Positions 326 through 44,278 of a DNA stretch of 46,109 bases are shown here, piece by piece; the first letter of the stretch is position 1; the number at the start of each line of letters is the position of its first letter. The DNA comes from a virus. The position numbers were made by a program, and so were the translations under genes. The stretch spans positions 1-46,109 of IMG/VR virus record IMGVR_UViG_3300031753_000011; one strand, written 5' to 3'. The notes under the pieces were generated by a model. That model did not search any database, was not told the origin of the DNA, and was given only the letters and a program-made list of their open reading frames with translations.

Positions 326-2527
326 CTACTCTTTTACGAAGAGACCAGCGGAGACTTGCTGAGCAGCACGGAGATTGAGAACCGCTTGCTTGAAGTACGA
401 TTCTTTCAACTCAAATCCGATGAAGCGTCGATTTAGTTTTACCGCTACGTGGCCCTCGCTGCCAATGCCGGCGAACGGTGAGAGTACTAAATCGTTTGGA
501 TTGGTCCACAACTCCAGCGCGCGTTGAATTACTTGCAGTTGCAGCGGGCAGATGTGCCGCTCGTCCTCGTGTTCGCGTGCGGATTCTTTCTGCAACGTGT
601 CGCTTGGATTTATGTCCATCCACACCGGCGAAGCATAGCGCTGCCAAACTTGCACAGGGAATGTTTCGTTGGTGTGCGTCACGCGTTCGGGATTGTCGCC
701 GCGCTTGCGCATGGTCACAAGATAATCCGGTATACCTTGCCGCGACATGCAGGAATCTTTCTTGAGTTGCTTGTGCAGGAGCCCGAGCGCTTTTGTGCGT
801 TGCATCGCTGTAACTGGATCTTTCCAGATGCACACTTCGCTGTGGTAAACGAATCCTGCCTCTTGAAAAATGCGGATCATGTCGCCGCGAAAGTCCGATA
901 TACCAATGATGCCGTCGCGTTCCTTGGATGTCGGCAAATTCATGCAATGGAAACTGAGCAGCCGACCGGGCATCAACACGCGGTGCAGCTCGATCGTGAT
1001 AAATCGGAAGTGATGATAGAAGTCAGCGTGCGTGCGACAGTTCCCCATGTCGCGCTCGCTCGAAGAGTACGTGTACAGCGAAGCGAACGGCGGCGAGAAG
1101 ATCGAATAGTGCAGGCTGTCCGTCTCAATCTCTTTGATGAGGTCTACGCAATCGCCTAGCTTCATTTCCCAGTTGTCTGCTTTTTCCGTTCGTGTTTTGT
1201 ATGCGACCTTCTGCCGCAAGTTCTCGCCGTGAATCTGTTTTTGGTTTAGCTCTTGCATGTGATTCACCATTTCTTCGGCCATGCGCGCGGCGTCCTTTTC
1301 TTTTCGTTTGATGTTCTCGGTGACTGCTCCCTCGTTCGCGCTGGTTACGATGTAGCAGTGCACTGGTTTGGTTTGTCCGAATCGCCAGCAACGGCGCACC
1401 GCTTGATAGAATTGCTCGTAGGAATCGCTGAGACCGAAAAAAACAACATTCGGGCAGTGTTGCCAATTCATCCCGAATCCGCAGATGGATGGCTTGCTGA
1501 CAAGCACGCGAATCACGCCCTCGGAGAATCCGAGCATGCGAGACTCTTTGTCCTCGCGGTCGTCGGACCCGCGAATATCGACGGCATTCTTTATCATCGC
1601 AACTGCCGCGTCGCTCTCCGCATTCAGGTTGCACCAGATGAGCCACGGCTCTTTTTTCTTGGAGCCCACGATGCGCGCGACTTCTGCAGCTCGTTCCTCG
1701 ATACTGCCTGATCGCGCCTGCCGTCTCTCTTGGAGAGTTGACGCGGGCATGGCAAACAGCATTCCTTCCGTTGGCTTGTGAACGTCCACTGTCACATCAT
1801 GGAAGTTTAGATCGGGTAAAATGAATTGCTCGTCGGGATAACCCAAGTCGCTCGGCTTGCGCATCATCACGGCCCACGAACAAATCCAGCGCCAGAAGTC
1901 GCGTTCAGCGTGTCGCTTCAATCTCCATTTGGAAGTCTCTCCGCCGTCGTGGACGAAGAATGTCGAGAGCATCTCGGTGCGCGACAATGCTCCTAGAAAC
2001 TCCGAATGGTTCCCCAACTCCATGTAATCGTTTGGTGCCGGCGTTGCGGTGCACGCGAGTCGGTACGGAGTTTTGTTGAATGTGTCGATGATCTGATTGC
2101 GGAACACTCCCTCAAAGGATTTTAGTATGCTGGATTCGTCCAGCACGATTCCCTGATAGTCCGTTGCTGAGAAGTGTGACAGCATTTCGTAATTCGTGAC
2201 GGTGATTTGAGCGGAACAAGTTTCGCGCGCGTAGGTTGCGGCGATGTCAAACTTGTTGGCTTCTCGGATAGTTTGCTGTGCGACCGCGAGCGGGGCGAGG
2301 ATGAGCACGCGACCTGGCACATGCTTTGCCCATTCTAGTTGCATCGGAGTCTTGCCAAGCCCGCAATCGCAAAACAGCGCAGCGCGGCCTTTCTTGAGAG
2401 CCCATCGCACAATGTCTCGTTGAAAGTCGAACAGTTTAGGGTTGAGCTGGTCGGCGGGTATGTCTATACCGCACTCTTCTAATTTTATTTGCTTCAGTTC
2501 TAGGAAGCGCTCGTAAGCAGACTTCAT
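326..2527 (-). CDS. SNF2-like helicase fused to a DNA methyltransferase
   Basis: The protein has 733 residues. The N-terminal half looks like a superfamily 2 ATPase: Walker A GLGKT near residue 56-60, motif II LDES near 129-132, motif III TATP near 160, and a C-terminal RecA-like lobe ending in a motif VI-like QAVRRCWRFGQT near 375-386. The C-terminal part, from about residue 450, looks like an amino-methyltransferase of the beta class: the catalytic SPPF tetrapeptide near 478-481 comes before the SAM-binding FAGIGS near 685-690. Such proteins methylate adenine N6 or cytosine N4; the target sequence cannot be read here. No restriction nuclease domain or partner is visible. The start codon overlaps the stop of the upstream zinc-ribbon gene (ATGA), so it is the last gene of the leftward operon. 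Likely roles are protection of phage DNA or remodelling during replication. Confidence 0.85.
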   Translation of the reverse strand: MKSAYERFLELKQIKLEECGIDIPADQLNPKLFDFQRDIVRWALKKGRAALFCDCGLGKTPMQLEWAKHVPGRVLILAPLAVAQQTIREANKFDIAATYARETCSAQITVTNYEMLSHFSATDYQGIVLDESSILKSFEGVFRNQIIDTFNKTPYRLACTATPAPNDYMELGNHSEFLGALSRTEMLSTFFVHDGGETSKWRLKRHAERDFWRWICSWAVMMRKPSDLGYPDEQFILPDLNFHDVTVDVHKPTEGMLFAMPASTLQERRQARSGSIEERAAEVARIVGSKKKEPWLIWCNLNAESDAAVAMIKNAVDIRGSDDREDKESRMLGFSEGVIRVLVSKPSICGFGMNWQHCPNVVFFGLSDSYEQFYQAVRRCWRFGQTKPVHCYIVTSANEGAVTENIKRKEKDAARMAEEMVNHMQELNQKQIHGENLRQKVAYKTRTEKADNWEMKLGDCVDLIKEIETDSLHYSIFSPPFASLYTYSSSERDMGNCRTHADFYHHFRFITIELHRVLMPGRLLSFHCMNLPTSKERDGIIGISDFRGDMIRIFQEAGFVYHSEVCIWKDPVTAMQRTKALGLLHKQLKKDSCMSRQGIPDYLVTMRKRGDNPERVTHTNETFPVQVWQRYASPVWMDINPSDTLQKESAREHEDERHICPLQLQVIQRALELWTNPNDLVLSPFAGIGSEGHVAVKLNRRFIGFELKESYFKQAVLNLRAAQQVSAGLFVKE

Positions 2528-33028: not shown

Positions 33029-33994
33029 TCACGGCCCGTACGACCAGAAAGTTCCGGGCCACACGGTGGCTCCCGCCGAGAAACGCTGCGTGCTCAGGAA
33101 CAAAAGCACCTGCGTCTTGAAGTCATCATCGGTCTGCGCCATGAGCGGCTCGCGCTCGTAGAATTTCATTTGATGGCCGGACTTTTCTGCGATGAGTCCC
33201 CATCCCGATGTTGAAGTCAGATAGTTGAGTTCCAACCCTTGCAGATTTTCTGCTTGCAGCCAGTTCAGTTCGTTGTTCGCACTGAACGGCACGCCGGGAG
33301 AGCCGATCAACTCACGCGTCAAGCGGCGAAGTTCGGGCGGATGAACCAAGTGACGCGGGTGCACGTGAATCGGGATACCGCGTCCATCGGGCATGCGCGC
33401 GAAAATGTTGATTGCTTGCTGCAATGCAGTGTCGCCGAGGTCGGTATCGGGGTTGGGCCGGTTCGGGTAGGTGCCTGCCGCCGAGATGATATTTGTGATT
33501 CCCGGTGCCGTCGCGGTCGCTGCTGTTCCGCCGAGCAACGGATGCGCGATGTTGAACAGCGTTACGCCGTCATTCGTGAGAATTAGCGTCCCGCCAAGAT
33601 TGAACAGCGAGCAGCACACTGCTTCGCGACCGAACAATCCCGAGCGTGCATGCGACTTGGGCATCTGCTTCACGATGCCGTACTTGTCGTCGGCAATCAG
33701 TTGCCGCGTAACTTCGGAGAGCAACCCGTACTGCAAGTGTAGATACTTTTTCGTGCCGCCTTGAATCATCGCGTCGGTGATCGGCGGAGTGCCTTCCGGC
33801 ATGAGAGGCATCGGCCCGGTACCCGACAACTGGTAGTCGATTTCGTACGCGTCCTCGGAGGTCATCTCGTTCATGTAGTGCGGGTATTGTGGCGCGTGTT
33901 CTTTCAAATCGAAGAATTCAACGAAAATGTGACGTAACCCAGGAGCTAATAGCGGGGGAAAATTATTTCTAGATTGTACACCCAACGGAGCCAT
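33029..33994 (-). CDS. Major capsid protein, 321 aa
   Basis: Its position after scaffold and decoration genes, its size and its sequence style (YEIDYQLSGTGPMPLMPEG, LSEVTRQLIADDKYG, ARSGLFGREAVCC, then DLGDTALQQAINIFARM and PFSANNELNW) fit an HK97-fold head protein of the Mu gpT-like kind. A GGGAGGG site lies 8 bases before the ATG. No N-terminal delta domain is evident, consistent with a separate scaffold. Confidence 0.75.
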   Translation of the reverse strand: MAPLGVQSRNNFPPLLAPGLRHIFVEFFDLKEHAPQYPHYMNEMTSEDAYEIDYQLSGTGPMPLMPEGTPPITDAMIQGGTKKYLHLQYGLLSEVTRQLIADDKYGIVKQMPKSHARSGLFGREAVCCSLFNLGGTLILTNDGVTLFNIAHPLLGGTAATATAPGITNIISAAGTYPNRPNPDTDLGDTALQQAINIFARMPDGRGIPIHVHPRHLVHPPELRRLTRELIGSPGVPFSANNELNWLQAENLQGLELNYLTSTSGWGLIAEKSGHQMKFYEREPLMAQTDDDFKTQVLLFLSTQRFSAGATVWPGTFWSYGP

Positions 33995-36582: not shown

Positions 36583-36866
36583 CGGCGACTCCGTTTCCAC
36601 TCCTGCAACTCTTTGGGCAAGTCGCGCATTCTTTCGAGTACAGCGATCTGTCCTCTGCAAAAGTTTGTGAGTTCCATAGTTGGCGTGTTGTGTATCACGT
36701 CATACTCCAGCGCTTGGCGGAGCGCCTCCAGGTCCGCTAGGAGGTCCGCCCATGCCGGGTTCTGCACCAGGGACGAGGCCCGGTCGGGGTTGGCGAATAG
36801 CTTGGGCCATCGCACTGAGTCGGTCTGCGGGTTGCTGCTGCGCTGGTCCGGGTTGCGCTTTGGCAT
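36579..36866 (-). CDS. Small portal-linked protein, up to 95 aa
   Basis: The core NPAWADLLADLEALRQALEY and ELTNFCRGQIAVLERMRDLP resembles short helical proteins encoded just after phage portals (pattern of a tryptophan/leucine helix, then RGxIxxL and LP). The start is unclear: the ATG at 36866 gives a long overlap with the portal 3' end, and a later GTG near 36765 is possible. Confidence 0.5.
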   Translation of the reverse strand: MPKRNPDQRSSNPQTDSVRWPKLFANPDRASSLVQNPAWADLLADLEALRQALEYDVIHNTPTMELTNFCRGQIAVLERMRDLPKELQEWKRSRR

Positions 36867-38745
36867 TGAGTTCCTCGGGAAATTCGATGTTAGCTACAAA
36901 CTCCTCCGGTTGGTCGGTGATTTGAAAATCACGGACGATCTGCTGCATAAGCCGCATTTTCCCTTTGGCCGTTTCGATGAGCCACTTTTTGTAAAACTCT
37001 GGGAGTCCCTGATTCTGCACTGCCTGAATCGCGCTGGACATGGATTTCATGTAGCCGTCGAGCGCTTGATTCAACAGCAATTCGTTTTGCTTGGTGACTT
37101 CGCGGTTGGCGCTCGCGGTTGTGGAGCGAATGGGAATCCGTACTTTGCGTTCAAGAAAATCTGCCAGCGCTTCGTCCAGCAACTTGTCGTCGAGCCCGAA
37201 CATAGAACCTTTGCCGCCGAGTCCCATCGCTCCGTACATGTCCGTGAGCAGCGAAATAAGTTTTACGTGCGAGTGCCGAAAATCCGACGTGCGATGATTG
37301 TTGCGCGAGTTCCCCTCTTGCAACACCGCCATTGTGCCCATGCTTCCGAACTGGCCTTTCTTGTTGGTGGTGCCTGGTCCCATTGCTCCGAGTGGTGGAC
37401 CGACTCCGAATCTTTCGCGCGCTTGCTGAATCATGGCTTGCTCGTTCGCCATTGACAGTTGACCGGCATCCACATTGCCCACCGAGTAATGCTCAAACTC
37501 TCCGTTGCCGAACGGTAGCGTTGCGCCCGGAAAAACTTTCATGTTCTTGTCGATGTTTTTGTTTTGCGGCGAGAGCCGGTTGAGTCCGAGCATCATCCAC
37601 GTGGTTGCATCGTTGCGCTGATTCTTCGCCGTGCTGATTTCATCTTGGAAGTATTGCCCCATGTCCGCGTAGCCGCGCCCGTTCATGCCAAACTCGCCAA
37701 GCGACAGCCGCGTGCGAATCAACGGAATCTGATTTTCAGGTATGAAATTGAAAACCTGATTCAGCATGGTTTTCGTTTCAAAATGGAACCAGGCGATAAG
37801 TCGAAACTTTCGCGGGCCGACGTACCAGTAAAAATAGCACTCGTGAATATCCCACTCCGCGAGGATGCGGTCCTCGGTGGACACCACGCCTTTCTTTTGG
37901 TTCTCGCGCTTGCGGATTTCTCCGGGTCCGTAGCGGTCTGGCTTGCCTAATATTTTTTCCACATCGGCTTTGCGATAGTGGCCTTTGAACACTCGCTCTT
38001 GTAAGTCGCGGCGGTTGAGTGTCACCTTGCGTGACAAGAAAACAGAATCTTCTGGCGTGTTCGCGTCCGGGTCGTAGAGCACATCCTCGAATCGCAGGTT
38101 GACTACTTTCGGCCCTTCGTAGAGCGTTTCGTTCTCGAATTTTTTTCGCTTGCCTACTTTGTCGTAGCCGACGTAAATCGCTTCGACGCGCTTCTCGGGT
38201 GCCACGCATACCCACGCAGTTCCGAGGTCGGTGCTGTCGTGGAACCAAAGATTTTCCACGCGATACAAGTCGAGTTCTTTTGGTTCGTATGCAACGTGGT
38301 CGATGAACGTTTCGAGTAGTCGAGCCTTGCGAGAGTTATTCGCGGCATCGTCGGAATCTTTGGCTTGCGTGAAGTAGCGGTAGTTGATTATCGGCGCGAT
38401 GGCCCAGACGAGCTGCATCACGCGAGCGGAAAGTTCATCGCTTGATTCGCCGATGATCGGGTGCACCAAGTTGCTGCAATTCTCGAACGGCCAGGATTTA
38501 TTTTCTTCGCGCGGCTTGCCACTCGCGAGGCGTCGCCACTCTGGGACTTTGTGCTTGTGTAGGTTTTCGAGTTGTTTCGTGCGTGCGTCGATCTGCTCAT
38601 ACACCCACTTGCAAATCTCTGCGTCTGTCGATTCGCCGAAGGAAGCCTCACGCATTTCAAAGTTGCGCGCGGTGCGGTAAGACAGTTTTGGTTTTGGCTC
38701 AGGAGTCGGCGCGATCTGCGGGAGTTGCGGAACTGCGGTTGCCAT
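36700..38745 (-). CDS. Portal protein, 681 aa
   Basis: The order and style (KSWPFENCSNLVHPIIGESS, LYDPDANTPEDSVFLSRKVT, AKNQRNDATTWMMLGL near the middle, then a glutamine/proline tail) fit large portals of P22-like short-tailed phages, which form the dodecameric DNA channel and hold the terminase. Its neighbours, terminase upstream and scaffold downstream, agree. The C-terminal 50 residues are proline/glycine-rich and probably disordered. Confidence 0.8.
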   Translation of the reverse strand: MATAVPQLPQIAPTPEPKPKLSYRTARNFEMREASFGESTDAEICKWVYEQIDARTKQLENLHKHKVPEWRRLASGKPREENKSWPFENCSNLVHPIIGESSDELSARVMQLVWAIAPIINYRYFTQAKDSDDAANNSRKARLLETFIDHVAYEPKELDLYRVENLWFHDSTDLGTAWVCVAPEKRVEAIYVGYDKVGKRKKFENETLYEGPKVVNLRFEDVLYDPDANTPEDSVFLSRKVTLNRRDLQERVFKGHYRKADVEKILGKPDRYGPGEIRKRENQKKGVVSTEDRILAEWDIHECYFYWYVGPRKFRLIAWFHFETKTMLNQVFNFIPENQIPLIRTRLSLGEFGMNGRGYADMGQYFQDEISTAKNQRNDATTWMMLGLNRLSPQNKNIDKNMKVFPGATLPFGNGEFEHYSVGNVDAGQLSMANEQAMIQQARERFGVGPPLGAMGPGTTNKKGQFGSMGTMAVLQEGNSRNNHRTSDFRHSHVKLISLLTDMYGAMGLGGKGSMFGLDDKLLDEALADFLERKVRIPIRSTTASANREVTKQNELLLNQALDGYMKSMSSAIQAVQNQGLPEFYKKWLIETAKGKMRLMQQIVRDFQITDQPEEFVANIEFPEELNAKAQPGPAQQQPADRLSAMAQAIRQPRPGLVPGAEPGMGGPPSGPGGAPPSAGV

Positions 38746-39152: not shown

Positions 39153-40844
39153 TCAGTACCCTCCTGCTCCGACGTTTCGGTTTCTGAAAGCCTCATTCTG
39201 CGCTGCAACCCATTCGAGCGTGTCTCGTCGTCGCACGTTGTCGAGCGTAACAGGTACTTGCGCGAGCGTGTCGAGCACGTCCAGCGTGCCAGCGGGGTAC
39301 GTTTCGTACTCGGAGAAAAATTCTTTGAAACTCGGATGGCACCAAAACTGTTTGGCTTTGAAAAGAGTTTGCAGCGCTTCGATGCGGTTCGCTTGTCCGC
39401 TCTCGGAGTCGTCGCTGTCTAGTTCGATCACGTTGAGCATTTGTTTTTTGTCGCGGCGGTTGCGCTCGTCCAGATAGAACTTCAAACTCTGCGCAGCGTT
39501 CCTGCTCAGATAAAACTCGCTGAGTCCCATTGGTCCCGCCATTTTGTACACGATGTCCAGCACGTCCCCATACAAAAACTTTCCGACTTCGAGCCGCAGC
39601 AAATAAATATTATCCTTTTCGCTGTCGTACCCGGCCACGAGGACCACGTGGTTCACACGCCGATGCTTCTTTGCGTCCGCGAGGCTCACGATCATGCGTT
39701 TGTGCAGCACGCCCGCGTTGATGTCAGGTAGAACTTTGCCGCCGTACACGTAGTGTTTTAGCAGCAAGTAGTTTCGCGGGTCGCTCTTGTCGAGTCCGGG
39801 CATCGCTTCGCGGCATTCGTACTTGCGAATCCAATCCGGTTTGAACAAGCACTCCTCTGGGAGTACCGTCTTGTTACGGTAGAAGTGCAGGTAATCGTAG
39901 CTGGAGCCGTTGTGCGAGAGAGTTTCTTTTTCTTTTTGCAACCGCTCCATCGTCCACTCTTCGGGGAAGATGGGCACGCCGTGCTCGGGATGAATTGCGC
40001 AGCATCCGCCTTCGGCGTCGTGTGTTTCGATTTTGAATTCGGGATGGTTAGCGCGGATTTTTGAGTTGAGGTCTGCGTGGCCCCAACGGTTGCCGATGAC
40101 GAGCTGCCGGCCGATTCCTGACTTTGTGAACGCGACGGGATCGAATCGCGTTGTTGTTTGTTTCCACCAGCGGTACACGTCGTCCATGATTGAGCCGTCA
40201 CCGTTGAGCATATTGAACTGCGCGGTTTTTCCAACTGAGTCGTCGTTGATGATTCCACTCACGTGCACGCCTTGCAAGGCTTGGCCCACGCTGCGAAACT
40301 CATACGTCGAAGTCGTGAGGTCGCTCGGTCGTGTGCGGTCGCGTTGGTGCATTTTGCTGTGATTGTTCCAGGTTGTTTCGCTGTCGGGAATTACATCTGA
40401 GAACGCAAACCGGAACACGTCGTTGTGCAAATAGTGGTCGTCAATCGCTTTGCTCATGGAGACTACACGCATCGCGGTTTCGTGCGTGACCAGTGTGCGT
40501 GCGTTTTGGTCATGCGCTACTTTCATCCACCGAATCCACTCGTTGTCATATCCGAGCCCGCGCATGAGCTGCTCATCCCGCTCGGTGAACGACAGCGCCC
40601 ACCACATCGAAAGGGCTTCGACACCGATTGTCGTTTTGAAATGCGACATGGGAATCTCGAACACCAGATGCAGGTCCTCGGTCTCCAGCGTCGAGCACAT
40701 GTGCCAGTGAAGTTTTGCAAGCCGATGTTTTTTCAAAACGTACGACGTGAAAAAGAAAAGCGAGCCTAGCGAGTTGAGTCGGATCGCGTCGCGGTACGAT
40801 ACTGGGTCGTCACGCGGGATCGGAAGTGCCGTCCAGTTCATCAC
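39153..40844 (-). CDS. terL: Terminase large subunit, 563 aa
   Basis: An ATPase domain has IPMSHFKTTI near residues 64-73 at the Walker A position, and VSGIINDDSV near 196 as Walker B. A nuclease domain follows with VLVAGYDSEKDNIYLLRLEV and conserved aspartates. The Walker A is unusual because the glycine before the lysine is phenylalanine. The enzyme cuts and pumps DNA into the head through the portal. A small terminase subunit was not recognised. The start codon overlaps the helicase stop. Confidence 0.8.
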   Translation of the reverse strand: MMNWTALPIPRDDPVSYRDAIRLNSLGSLFFFTSYVLKKHRLAKLHWHMCSTLETEDLHLVFEIPMSHFKTTIGVEALSMWWALSFTERDEQLMRGLGYDNEWIRWMKVAHDQNARTLVTHETAMRVVSMSKAIDDHYLHNDVFRFAFSDVIPDSETTWNNHSKMHQRDRTRPSDLTTSTYEFRSVGQALQGVHVSGIINDDSVGKTAQFNMLNGDGSIMDDVYRWWKQTTTRFDPVAFTKSGIGRQLVIGNRWGHADLNSKIRANHPEFKIETHDAEGGCCAIHPEHGVPIFPEEWTMERLQKEKETLSHNGSSYDYLHFYRNKTVLPEECLFKPDWIRKYECREAMPGLDKSDPRNYLLLKHYVYGGKVLPDINAGVLHKRMIVSLADAKKHRRVNHVVLVAGYDSEKDNIYLLRLEVGKFLYGDVLDIVYKMAGPMGLSEFYLSRNAAQSLKFYLDERNRRDKKQMLNVIELDSDDSESGQANRIEALQTLFKAKQFWCHPSFKEFFSEYETYPAGTLDVLDTLAQVPVTLDNVRRRDTLEWVAAQNEAFRNRNVGAGGY

Positions 40845-42205
40845 TGATCTTTGTACGGCAGAGGTTTCACCGCCCTAGGAGCCTCGCCGGGTTCAAATCG
40901 AAATGTTCGGATATTGAATCTACATTCCGTCATGCCCATTCGTCCGTCTCGACTTTTCAGAATAAATACGCGCGCCTCTGTTTCTTCGCCAGTCAAGTCC
41001 TGAACGTACGGTCGGTCCACATAGAGAATTATGTTCGCGTGCTTCGACTTTGCGCCTGATCCATACAAACGCTGGAGTGTCGGATGTTCTCTGTCTTTAG
41101 CGTCGAGGCTCTTACGCAACTGAGAAACAATTATCACCGGGATGCGCAACTCCATCGCAAGCGCCTTGAGCGAACGTATAAGAATGCGCTGCTGGTCCCA
41201 TTCGTCTTTTCCTTGAACTTCTACCAACTCATCGTAGTCTACGATGATTCCGCCGAGTTCGTTTTTTGATCCCATCGTCCGAGCTGCAAGGCGAATGCGA
41301 GCAAGCGAGAGTTCACCGTCAAGAATGCGACAAGTTTTGCATTGACGGCCAGTAGCCTCAACCAACTCCGTCGTATCGTGGTCGCTGAGAAATTCAGGAT
41401 GCCTAATTTTTGAATACTCGACGCGAGAATCAGAGCAGAGCACGCGGGCCATGAGGTGCTCTGCCAGCATTTCTCCCGAGCAATAGAGTACGTGGTGCCC
41501 CGATTCGCAAGCTGTGCGACCGATCTGGAGCGCGAAGAAAGTTTTCCCGACGCCCGTCTCCGCCGTGATGATTCCTATTTCTCCTGAGCGGAATCCTCCA
41601 CAACGCTCGTCTACTTCACCGATACCCGTATTTATCTTGATGAACTTTTTTTCCCAAAGATCACTGAGTAGAGAAATGGCCGCGTCACGATTGGTTTGCC
41701 CGCGATCTTCGGATTCCGTCAGCTTTGCAATCTGGGAAAATAATTCAATAGCTCCGTCGATGACTTGAGAAGCTGGCGCTCCGCTCGCGTCGGCCTCGTA
41801 CGCGTCTGTTTCTATTTTCGATGAAGCGATGATTAAAAGCCGCATCACTCGTTTTGTTCGGACCCGTTGCGCGTAACTATCGACGCGCATCTTCATAAAA
41901 ATTCCGTCAACGAGCGATGCGAGGTAAGGGATGCCGCCAACTTCGTCTACTTCTTTGGCCGCGCTGATGGTCCCTTCTAGAAATGCAAGGTCAACTGGCT
42001 TCGCGTCTTGCCAAAGTTTTTTGAGTGAACGGAAGATCACACGATGACGAGCGTCGAAAAAATCTTCTTCGGTAAGCAACTCCATGAGTTCCGCTGTTCG
42101 CTCGTTACCCATGATGATAGACCCAAGCAAAATGCGTTCGGCGTCGATGTCAATGGGCTGTCTTGGTCCTAGGGTTTGATTTTTGAAATCCTCAGTTTTT
42201 CCCAT
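40841..42205 (-). CDS. DnaB-type replicative helicase, 454 aa
   Basis: The N-terminal domain (AERILLGSIIMGNERTAELM, EDFFDARHRVIFRSLKKLW) and the RecA-like domain with AETGVGKT near 215-222 and GIIVDYDEL near 319-327 are those of DnaB-family hexameric helicases, which unwind DNA at the fork. The length is normal for the family. It starts inside the 3' end of the YdaU-like gene, a usual loader/helicase order. No primase gene was recognised. Confidence 0.85.
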   Translation of the reverse strand: MGKTEDFKNQTLGPRQPIDIDAERILLGSIIMGNERTAELMELLTEEDFFDARHRVIFRSLKKLWQDAKPVDLAFLEGTISAAKEVDEVGGIPYLASLVDGIFMKMRVDSYAQRVRTKRVMRLLIIASSKIETDAYEADASGAPASQVIDGAIELFSQIAKLTESEDRGQTNRDAAISLLSDLWEKKFIKINTGIGEVDERCGGFRSGEIGIITAETGVGKTFFALQIGRTACESGHHVLYCSGEMLAEHLMARVLCSDSRVEYSKIRHPEFLSDHDTTELVEATGRQCKTCRILDGELSLARIRLAARTMGSKNELGGIIVDYDELVEVQGKDEWDQQRILIRSLKALAMELRIPVIIVSQLRKSLDAKDREHPTLQRLYGSGAKSKHANIILYVDRPYVQDLTGEETEARVFILKSRDGRMGMTECRFNIRTFRFEPGEAPRAVKPLPYKDQ

Positions 42206-42699
42206 GCCGCTGAAACTCCTCCCCTTTTGGTGCCTTTAGTGAGATCGCCGTTAGAAGAACGATCTAAAGGCTTAACTTCAAAATCTTCTGAAGAGACAGC
42301 CGAAGGCACCCCGTCTATAGTCTTAATGTCTAATGTCTGACCGGACGGTTGACCGGACGGTTGACCGGACGGTTGACCGGACGGTTGCTTAGTTCTGGCC
42401 GCAACTCCGAGGGCTGACGCAGCCTTAGCTTTATTTCTCTTTTCGTTTGTGTAGTTTAGCTCTTCTTGGAATCGAGGATTGATGCCTTTGGGGAAAAAAC
42501 GCTCATAAATTACCTTGACGGCGAGCTTTTCTTCTGGCGTCGCGGCTCGGGCAATACGCAAGGCGTCGGTTAACCGTCCGATAGACCGTTCGGTGTAGTA
42601 TTGGTAGTCAAGTAACCGATTGTATGCGCAGTCCTCCAACCAAGAAAGATTGAGCGTATCGGCAATATAAGAACCTGGGAATCTTCTGTAAAAATCCGT
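42169..42699 (-). CDS. YdaU/DUF1376-like replication protein with ACG start, 176 aa
   Basis: The N-terminus (DFYRRFPGSYIADTLNLSWL, then EDCAYNRLLDYQYYTE and ALRIARAATPEEKLAV) matches the DUF1376 domain of phage replication or helicase-loading proteins. That domain is only complete if the gene begins at 42699, where the codon is ACG, 5 bases after an AGGAGG site and downstream of an in-frame TAG. The first conventional start is a TTG at 42639, which would remove 20 conserved residues. A four-fold PSGQ linker separates the domain from the C-terminal tail. Confidence 0.6.
   Translation of the reverse strand, partial: TDFYRRFPGSYIADTLNLSWLEDCAYNRLLDYQYYTERSIGRLTDALRIARAATPEEKLAVKVIYERFFPKGINPRFQEELNYTNEKRNKAKAASALGVAARTKQPSGQPSGQPSGQPSGQTLDIKTIDGVPSAVSSEDFEVKPLDRSSNGDLTKGTKRGGVSAAWEKLRISKIKP
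42339..42386. repeat. Four tandem 12-bp repeats
   Basis: GACCGGACGGTT is repeated four times without a mismatch (starts 42339, 42351, 42363, 42375) in the linker of the YdaU-like gene, encoding PSGQ units. Slippage would change the linker by whole units without frameshift. Confidence 0.95.
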
Positions 42700-42869: not shown

Positions 42870-43469
42870 CTACGCGGCGGACCCGACCGCGACACTCTTT
42901 TTCACGCGGCGTAGTTCGAGGTGTCCGCTCACTTTTGCGAGGATGTCGCTCTCTTGGATCACGCGGATTACGACTACCTCGTCCCCTGGTAATTCCAAAT
43001 CGTATACGTGCCCGGAAAATGAAGTATAGATCACTGCTTCGCCGCGTTGCGCGCGTTCTACTTTGTCTCCAACGCTCACGATAGTTCCTGTCGTTGGTCT
43101 GCGCTCGCTCGCTTGCGCTACGACGATCACGCCGCCTTTGCCTTTGCAAGTTCCGCACAGTGTGCGCCCAGTCCCACGGCACCGCGTACACTTCGCGTCG
43201 TGGACAATTATGCTCTTGCCAGAGCCGTTACAACTCTCGCACACCAACTCTTCGAGCTCGGGTGACTTGATTTTCTTTTTACCAACGCAGTCAGGGCACT
43301 CGTACCCCGATCTAAATTCATCTTCCACAACCAACAGCCTATCATTGAACGCTTCCATCGTCAGCGCCCCGAGGCGCAGCACGTTGGTTTGAATCGCGGA
43401 CTGCAAATCTATTTCTTGCACGAGGTCTCCTTGATAGGCTCTCGCCAATGATGCCCGCACTCCAAGCAT
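42870..43469 (-). CDS. GroES-like co-chaperonin with inserted DnaJ-type zinc finger, 199 aa
   Basis: The first GroES strand (EAFNDRLLVVEDEFRSG, residues about 39-55) is followed by four CxxC pairs (58-61, 77-80, 94-97, 105-108), three of them in the form CxxCxGxG, as in the DnaJ cysteine-rich domain. Then the GroES fold resumes: GVIVVAQASERRPTTGTIVS, GDKV, GEAVIYTSFSG, EVVVIRVIQESDILAKV. The zinc finger thus sits inside the segment that corresponds to the GroES mobile loop, which docks on GroEL. An N-terminal 38-residue extension and a basic tail are additional. The likely role is to redirect or adapt the host GroEL for folding phage proteins such as the capsid. No GroEL gene is in the window. 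Confidence 0.75.
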   Translation of the reverse strand: MLGVRASLARAYQGDLVQEIDLQSAIQTNVLRLGALTMEAFNDRLLVVEDEFRSGYECPDCVGKKKIKSPELEELVCESCNGSGKSIIVHDAKCTRCRGTGRTLCGTCKGKGGVIVVAQASERRPTTGTIVSVGDKVERAQRGEAVIYTSFSGHVYDLELPGDEVVVIRVIQESDILAKVSGHLELRRVKKSVAVGSAA

Positions 43470-43488
43470 CTAAAAATTGATTCTCCCT

Positions 43489-43501
43489 CTTGTTTCGGGA
43501 A
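43489..43501 (-). promoter_or_regulatory. TTCCCGAAACGAG-type element, copy 1
   Basis: On the minus strand TTCCCGAAACAAG lies 19 bases before the ATG of the GroES-like gene, with GAGGGAG following. Two closer copies stand before the next two genes upstream (44101 and 44286). The core GTTTCGGGAA is a partial palindrome and could be a protein or RNA-protein binding site. Confidence 0.6.
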
Positions 43502-43529
43502 GTTGCCAACAATTGAAACACCTACTTGC

Positions 43530-44093
43530 TTATCGCCTAAAAGCATCGGTTCCTGTTTCATTTTCGGAGAAACCCAGCAAATCTCGTTCTACCCTTGTTT
43601 TGCCGCATTCTGGGCACTTCCGAACTAGATACTCCAGTCCAAACGGATAATGCGAAACGGCATCCTTATTTTGCAGGCAGTTCACGCACAAATAACCGTC
43701 CCTGTCCTCTCGTGGTTTACCGCAATAACAACACGAGCATTCTTCTACCCAAACCTTTTTGTCCCAATGCCCATTCTTGTGATCGTGGCTGTAATCGCAG
43801 TATCGGATGCGGTAACCGTCCGCCGAATCCGCAAGTTGCTTTTTAAGGAGAGCAGCTATCTCAATCAAATCATCCGGCTGCCTAAACATGTGACCGGAAA
43901 ACACGCGAACGCAATGTTCGGATTTGTGGCAGCTTATGTGAATTTCAAAACCACAGACCGAGAAGTGTGAGCATCTGCACCCATCGCCTCCGCCAAGTTG
44001 ATAAAATCCATATCTTTCAATGAGTTCAAGGCACCCGGCTTTATTGGGATTCCTGTAGCCAGGCAATTCTATCTGTTCTCTTTGATAGCTCAT
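43530..44093 (-). CDS. Cysteine-rich multi-zinc protein, 187 aa
   Basis: The N-terminal half (NKAGCLELIERYGFYQLGGG, GCRCSHFSVCGFEIHISCHK) and the C-terminal half (CSCCYCGKPREDRDGYLCVN, CPECGKTRVERD) hold many CxxC-type pairs, at least three zinc sites. I start it at the ATG at 44093, eight bases after the repeated TTCCCGAAACGAG element. No enzyme domain was recognised. It stands between two regulatory-looking genes and the zinc-bearing co-chaperonin. Confidence 0.65.
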   Translation of the reverse strand: MSYQREQIELPGYRNPNKAGCLELIERYGFYQLGGGDGCRCSHFSVCGFEIHISCHKSEHCVRVFSGHMFRQPDDLIEIAALLKKQLADSADGYRIRYCDYSHDHKNGHWDKKVWVEECSCCYCGKPREDRDGYLCVNCLQNKDAVSHYPFGLEYLVRKCPECGKTRVERDLLGFSENETGTDAFRR

Positions 44094-44100
44094 TTTTTGG

Positions 44101-44114
44101 CTCGTTTCGGGAAC
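44101..44114 (-). promoter_or_regulatory. TTCCCGAAACGAG element, copy 2
   Basis: On the minus strand GTTCCCGAAACGAG is followed by CCAAAAAATG, where the ATG is the start of the cysteine-rich gene. It is identical over 14 bases to copy 3 and, like it, is followed by an A-run leading straight into the start codon. Confidence 0.75.
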
Positions 44115-44116
44115 GC

Positions 44117-44278
44117 CTATCGTTGCGTTAAAGCATACAAAATTAAAAATATCCAGATCACTTTGGCGAAAGATTGCCAATCAAATTCAGGTTGTGAAGG
44201 CAGAATAGCCCAATCCGATTCTTCGATCGGTAGAGTTTGGCTCGCGTTCAGTCCGTATTGAAAGAGTCGAGAGTTCAC
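44117..44278 (-). CDS. Small protein with C-terminal membrane helix, 53 aa
   Basis: The GTG at 44278 overlaps the RHH stop (GTGA) and follows the TTCCCGAAACGAG element. The sequence has an acidic, tryptophan-containing first half and ends in a hydrophobic helix (VIWIFLILYAL) with a short polar tail, so it is probably tail-anchored. The function is unknown. Confidence 0.55.
   Translation of the reverse strand: MNSRLFQYGLNASQTLPIEESDWAILPSQPEFDWQSFAKVIWIFLILYALTQR

Follow-up and report, generated by a model that had tools for sequence, protein, structure and literature searches.

A GroES co-chaperonin of uncultured phages with a docking loop predicted to be rebuilt around a DnaJ-like zinc finger

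The mobile loop of GroES is the part of the chaperonin lid that binds GroEL, and it is usually short and flexible. The zinc domain of DnaJ binds two zinc ions, one held by its CxxC motifs 1 and 4 and the other by motifs 2 and 3. In gp31 of phage T4 the roof loop is missing and the mobile loop has 22 residues, against 16 in GroES (PMC6318259), and ZnJ2, a DnaJ-type zinc-finger protein that lacks a J domain, has holdase activity (PMC5818400). Here we describe a large group of uncultured phages that, judging from sequences and structural models, carries a GroES whose docking loop is rebuilt around a DnaJ-like zinc finger (Zn-GroES). No description of a phage GroES with zinc, DnaJ or CxxC features was found in open-access papers, and the earlier note on this DNA, made from the letters alone, likewise knew of none.

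The gene lies on the minus strand of the window, by which we mean the whole stretch of 46,109 nucleotides that was analysed (IMG/VR record IMGVR_UViG_3300031753_000011, positions 1 to 46,109). It occupies positions 42870..43421, stop included, and encodes 183 amino acids from a GTG start, as defined by the open reading frame, the conserved start and Pfam matches. The earlier note had placed an open reading frame at 42870-43469 on this strand; the reading frame is real, but the gene is shorter, and the ATG at 43469 was rejected as its start because conservation among the homologues begins at GTG 43421. The homologues align from that residue, and AGGAG stands 5 nt upstream of it. All eight cysteines of the product fall within four CxxC motifs at residues 42, 61, 78 and 89; at least four such motifs arose in 3 of 200,000 shuffles of the protein sequence, by which chance clustering of the cysteines was rejected.

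Profile searches and structural models both assign the product to the GroES/Cpn10 family and fold. Pfam Cpn10 (PF00166) matches residues 93-164 with 26.5 bits, against a cutoff of 21.1, and the same profile matches 44 of the 45 aligned members of the family described below at E<=0.01. The NCBIfam models of DnaJ and GroES also match the product, both far below their full-length cutoffs. Single-chain AlphaFold2 models reached a mean pLDDT of 67 with a 15-sequence alignment and 79 with 45 sequences, and in the latter the barrel is predicted with confidence (block means of 86-97 over residues 111-160). The best PDB matches found by Foldseek are GroES/Cpn10 proteins, and nearly all named matches in its viral library are phage co-chaperonins. 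With VIA-align, M. tuberculosis Cpn10 (1p3h) scored Z 10.4, gp31 in its complex with GroEL (2cgt) Z 10.2 with an rmsd of 2.3 over 74, and Xanthomonas GroES (3nx6) Z 10.2 with an rmsd of 1.5 over 66 and 32% identity; quinone oxidoreductases are the next fold, from Z 7.2. An alcohol-dehydrogenase GroES-like domain was considered and rejected, since ADH_N matches only 6 of the 45 members and the structural rank of this fold is below that of the Cpn10 proteins. As the earlier note had expected, the predicted monomer contains a GroES barrel with the CxxC segment inside the loop, and GroES and T4 gp31 are both among the best matches of the model.

The protein begins with an N-terminal extension (residues 1-22; 43356..43421, on the minus strand like all features of the gene), delimited by alignments and the model and folded in the latter into a short helix and two strands; the structural alignment to gp31 begins at model residue 6. 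Strand β1 and the start of the mobile loop follow (residues 23-38; 43308..43355), located by the GroES alignment and by the modelled strand at residues 28-33. The insert with its four CxxC motifs extends from C42 to C92 (43146..43298) and is defined by the motif pattern, a Pfam match and the 45-member alignment. Register, the tripeptides of the family and the profile alignment identify IVV at residues 99-101 (43119..43127) as the docking tripeptide, and the model and VIA-align place the rest of the docking segment and the GroES barrel at residues 102-165 (42927..43118), where the roof hairpin of GroES is absent or short. The C-terminal tail (residues 166-183; 42873..42926), which is modelled as disordered with low confidence, ends in GSAA or GTAA and is conserved in sequence among close relatives (0.85). 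E. coli GroES has neither the N-terminal extension nor a counterpart of the tail.

The insert is positioned between strand β1 and the docking tripeptide in the profile and multiple alignments, and IVV stands 10 residues ahead of PTTG, the same distance that separates IVL and STRG in E. coli GroES. Alignments and model bear out the earlier reading that the GroES fold is interrupted in its docking loop by four DnaJ-like CxxC motifs, and GVIVV was correctly recognized as the counterpart of the IVL anchor, in exact GroES register. The zinc finger does not, however, stand in place of the mobile loop, as had been claimed: the insert is added in the N-terminal arm of the loop, and the docking part is retained. 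DnaJ_CXXCXGXG (PF00684) matches the window protein with 22.0 bits, against a cutoff of 32.7 (E 2e-4), and 30 of the 45 members at E<=0.01 (best 6e-8); motifs 2-4 of the window protein are complete CxxCxGxG motifs and motif 1 is partial (CPDCVGKK). The pLDDT is 85-89 over residues 61-90 and about 65 over residues 41-60, while the remaining insert and the docking segment stay at 58-65, as might be expected of a loop.

This architecture is not a one-off. The family was built from five viral relatives, after which IMG/VR was searched by junction pattern and alignment, and the homologue search proposed in the earlier note returned 51 IMG/VR loci sharing the insertion, about 45 of them distinct and some near-identical. 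A fusion produced by sequencing or assembly was rejected, as dozens of different contigs show the same architecture. In 84,980 bacterial and archaeal genomes the exact zinc-docking junction pattern, a narrow one that matches the loci then known, was found nowhere, and a protein-alignment scan of the same genomes detected no relative; GenBank phages and plasmids contained no full-length relative of Zn-GroES. Four CxxC motifs are present in 42 of the 45 aligned members and two in the remaining three. The outer columns are nearly invariant, with C42/C45 in 45/45 and C89/C92 in 44/45. Two-motif forms are L072 with its near-copies and L015, in which the inner pair alone is missing in agreement with nested motif pairing, and L067, whose spacing can be read either way; each of them retains one four-cysteine site at its loop. 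Because L072, L067 and L015 sit on separate branches of the barrel tree, the second zinc site seems dispensable, and the one four-cysteine site at the loop seems never to have been lost. Insert length is about 21-70 residues across the family. An extra CxxC pair occurs at the position of the GroES roof hairpin (after PTTG..VSxG) in L030, L070 and L141, which represent three branches, and exchange of inserts between lineages is possible because the inserts of L030 and L141 look alike. The three most divergent Zn-GroES proteins are those of the L076, L071 and L015 records, and a small J-domain-like protein was found only there, among 32 records searched (J-domain-like regions L123:1108-1665, L124:1171-1662 and G042:C1:13569-13646; the L015 match is below cutoff).

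We consider Zn-GroES to be, with a probability of roughly 60%, a gp31-like co-chaperonin dedicated to phage head proteins, which would work with host GroEL through a docking loop that zinc staples and lengthens. It would presumably form a seven-membered ring that caps the host chaperonin through docking tripeptides of the IVV type, so that head proteins of the phage, and most probably its major capsid protein, could fold inside the closed cage. Directly ahead of each tripeptide, the DnaJ-type CxxC hairpin in the mobile loop would bind zinc, the first ion being held by the two motifs nearest the loop base and a second by the optional inner pair. Such a hairpin could staple and lengthen the loop and thereby set the geometry and affinity of docking to GroEL, and the cage may be widened, as it is by the longer loops of gp31. 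This structural role is favoured because the non-cysteine residues of the insert have low pairwise identity across the family (0.32, against 0.47 in the barrel and 0.49 in the docking segment) and because the CxxC spacers range from 6 to 25 residues in length, as a staple or spacer would permit. Points against the co-chaperonin reading are the modest pLDDT of the insert, the weak tripeptides LAH, ISH and ASS, the frequent gap of 1-2 kb between the gene and TerL, the position of the gene beside replication genes in the window, and the conservation of the insert in the six closest members, which is still high (0.71). Given the latter, a specific binding surface on the insert is possible.

The weak tripeptides could also indicate that the protein has kept the GroES fold without any longer working with GroEL, for instance as a phage structural protein or assembly factor. 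Poor docking tripeptides are found in three members, the protein is extended beyond GroES at both termini, and GroES-like barrels also occur in dehydrogenases, in keeping with the six ADH_N matches. However, docking register and hydrophobicity are retained in most members: the tripeptides are mostly IVV, LVV, IIV or LIV (IVL occurs once among the 45 members, in L017), and 43 of the 45 have at least two hydrophobic residues, ISH and ASS being the exceptions. Furthermore, conservation among the six closest members is highest in the docking segment (0.87), and related phages have an ordinary Cpn10 in this role. A protein that acts independently of GroEL is very unlikely.

The functional proposal of the earlier note was that substrates could be handed from a DnaJ-like surface directly to host GroEL; on this view the zinc surface would itself bind phage proteins that are still unfolded and deliver them to the cage closed by the same molecule. 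On the one hand, zinc-finger proteins without a J domain can be holdases, as ZnJ2 illustrates, the insert matches BSD2_CRD weakly in 25 of the 45 members, and a heptamer would place seven such surfaces round the mouth of the cage. On the other hand, the protein has no J domain (no match to a J domain with HPD was found in the window protein or elsewhere in its record), three branches lack the inner motif pair, the spacers are variable, and outside its cysteines the insert is less conserved than the barrel. The proposed architecture stands, with its barrel, its CxxC segment in the loop, its retained tripeptide and its phage origin, whereas the hand-off function is unlikely. It is also doubtful, and slightly more so, that a phage lineage fused a substrate-holding zinc domain to a GroEL lid that collects head proteins, closes the cage and bypasses host DnaK/DnaJ. 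The observations agree better with a structural function of the zinc loop, within a co-chaperonin for head assembly, than with a transfer from a DnaJ-like surface to GroEL.

The genomic setting is consistent with the co-chaperonin reading. In the window, the Zn-GroES gene adjoins replication genes, namely those of a primosomal (DnaD-like) protein with a PSGQ repeat run (42169..42639; PHROGs, PT repeat) and a DnaB-like helicase (40841..42205; PHROGs), followed on the same minus strand by the terminase large subunit (39153..40844), which is the conserved downstream partner of Zn-GroES, the portal or head-tail connector (36700..38745), both assigned by PHROGs and synteny, and the major capsid protein (33029..33994; PHROGs). 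Throughout the family, the Zn-GroES gene is located upstream of the terminase, portal and head genes. A reverse search with the terminase gave 80 loci, 37 of which extend upstream by more than 3 kb, and in 36 of these 37 Zn-GroES is upstream of TerL; the single exception is on the contig of L071, which has Zn-GroES elsewhere. The strand is that of TerL in all 60 loci where Zn-GroES is present, and the distance is often 1-2 kb; several phages have the gene directly at the start of the terminase or overlapping it. The clade showed no full-length relative without zinc motifs, the three CxxC-free hits being truncated by the ends of their contigs. Since no Cpn60/GroEL gene was detected in 43 clade records, many of which are fragments, the GroEL of the host presumably serves as partner. 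Other features of these records were observed in passing. The open reading frames just upstream of Zn-GroES in the window (43409-43561 and 43530-44180, minus strand) contain CxxC pairs and are zinc-ribbon-like, the second with a weak NMD3 match; a single open reading frame at 326-2527 (minus strand) combines a helicase C-terminal domain with an N6/N4 DNA methylase; and terminase reading frames of more than 800 aa at L040:8568-11012 and L047:1811-4237 have Hint/intein-splicing matches below the Pfam cutoff and probably contain inteins.

The conserved location upstream of the terminase, portal and capsid genes could also be expected if the zinc hairpin were an arm that binds a phage protein (capsid, portal or terminase), or GroEL outside its groove, and steers the host chaperonin to head assembly. 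The roof-position CxxC pairs of three branches suggest lineage-specific surfaces that would suit such an arm. Across the family, however, the insert has no non-cysteine signature stronger than that of the barrel, and we regard such a targeting or client-selecting arm as improbable compared with a stapled and lengthened docking loop.

At the thresholds used, no relatives of the terminase or portal turned up among GenBank phages, and the host could not be inferred from them. The capsid protein does have such relatives, at 25-29% identity, and it belongs to the family whose GenBank members adjoin an ordinary Cpn10. In all seven GenBank phages examined (Alcaligenes QDWS535, Roseobacter CRP-902, Pelagibacter HTVC027P, Caulobacter GB2A, Planktothrix Pag-Yong1 and two spring phages), an ordinary Cpn10 without CxxC insert is encoded between portal and capsid. 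That of Caulobacter phage GB2A (gp089c; L192:8930-9361) is annotated as hypothetical and matches Cpn10 above the Pfam cutoff. Each of the 26 sampled records in which Cpn10 scores has one copy, which is the zinc form in the clade and the plain form in the others. Because the seven related phages and the clade each carry one form of Cpn10, phages of this capsid type seem to need a co-chaperonin of their own, and in the clade the zinc form seems to have replaced the plain one.

Two aspects make these proteins relevant to further study. First, a folded and probably zinc-dependent module has been placed by a group of phages exactly in the GroEL-binding loop, and the repeated changes of insert size and motif number, together with the roof CxxC pairs of three branches, form a natural series on loop order and length that could show how chaperonin docking, cage size and client choice are controlled. 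Second, the swap between ordinary and zinc Cpn10 among phages with related capsids makes the reason for a phage-owned co-chaperonin directly testable.

To our knowledge, the closest known metal-binding GroES is HspA of Helicobacter pylori. Its nickel site is in a histidine-rich C-terminal tail (PMC5116745, PMC8779794) and, unlike the predicted site of Zn-GroES, lies outside the mobile loop and is not of the CxxC type. The central domain of DnaJ (PF00684) and BSD2/ZnJ2 resemble the insert in having a single continuous domain with four CxxC motifs, most of which are CxxCxGxG; in Zn-GroES this domain is grafted into a GroES loop, some members have two motifs only, and the window match remains below cutoff. 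Bacterial GroES/Cpn10 (PF00166) shares the barrel and the docking tripeptide in register, whereas Zn-GroES has a CxxC insert before the tripeptide, no roof hairpin and extensions at both termini. The ordinary Cpn10 proteins of the related phages belong to genomes with the same capsid-protein family and are likewise encoded in the head module, but they lack the zinc insert and lie in the portal-capsid interval rather than upstream of the terminase. T4 gp31 has no CxxC insert in its loop, shares 16% identity with the window protein and acts in head assembly, whereas Zn-GroES is known only as a gene in the head module; nevertheless, both are phage-encoded proteins with a GroES fold, a mobile loop longer than that of GroES, an N-terminal extension and no roof loop.
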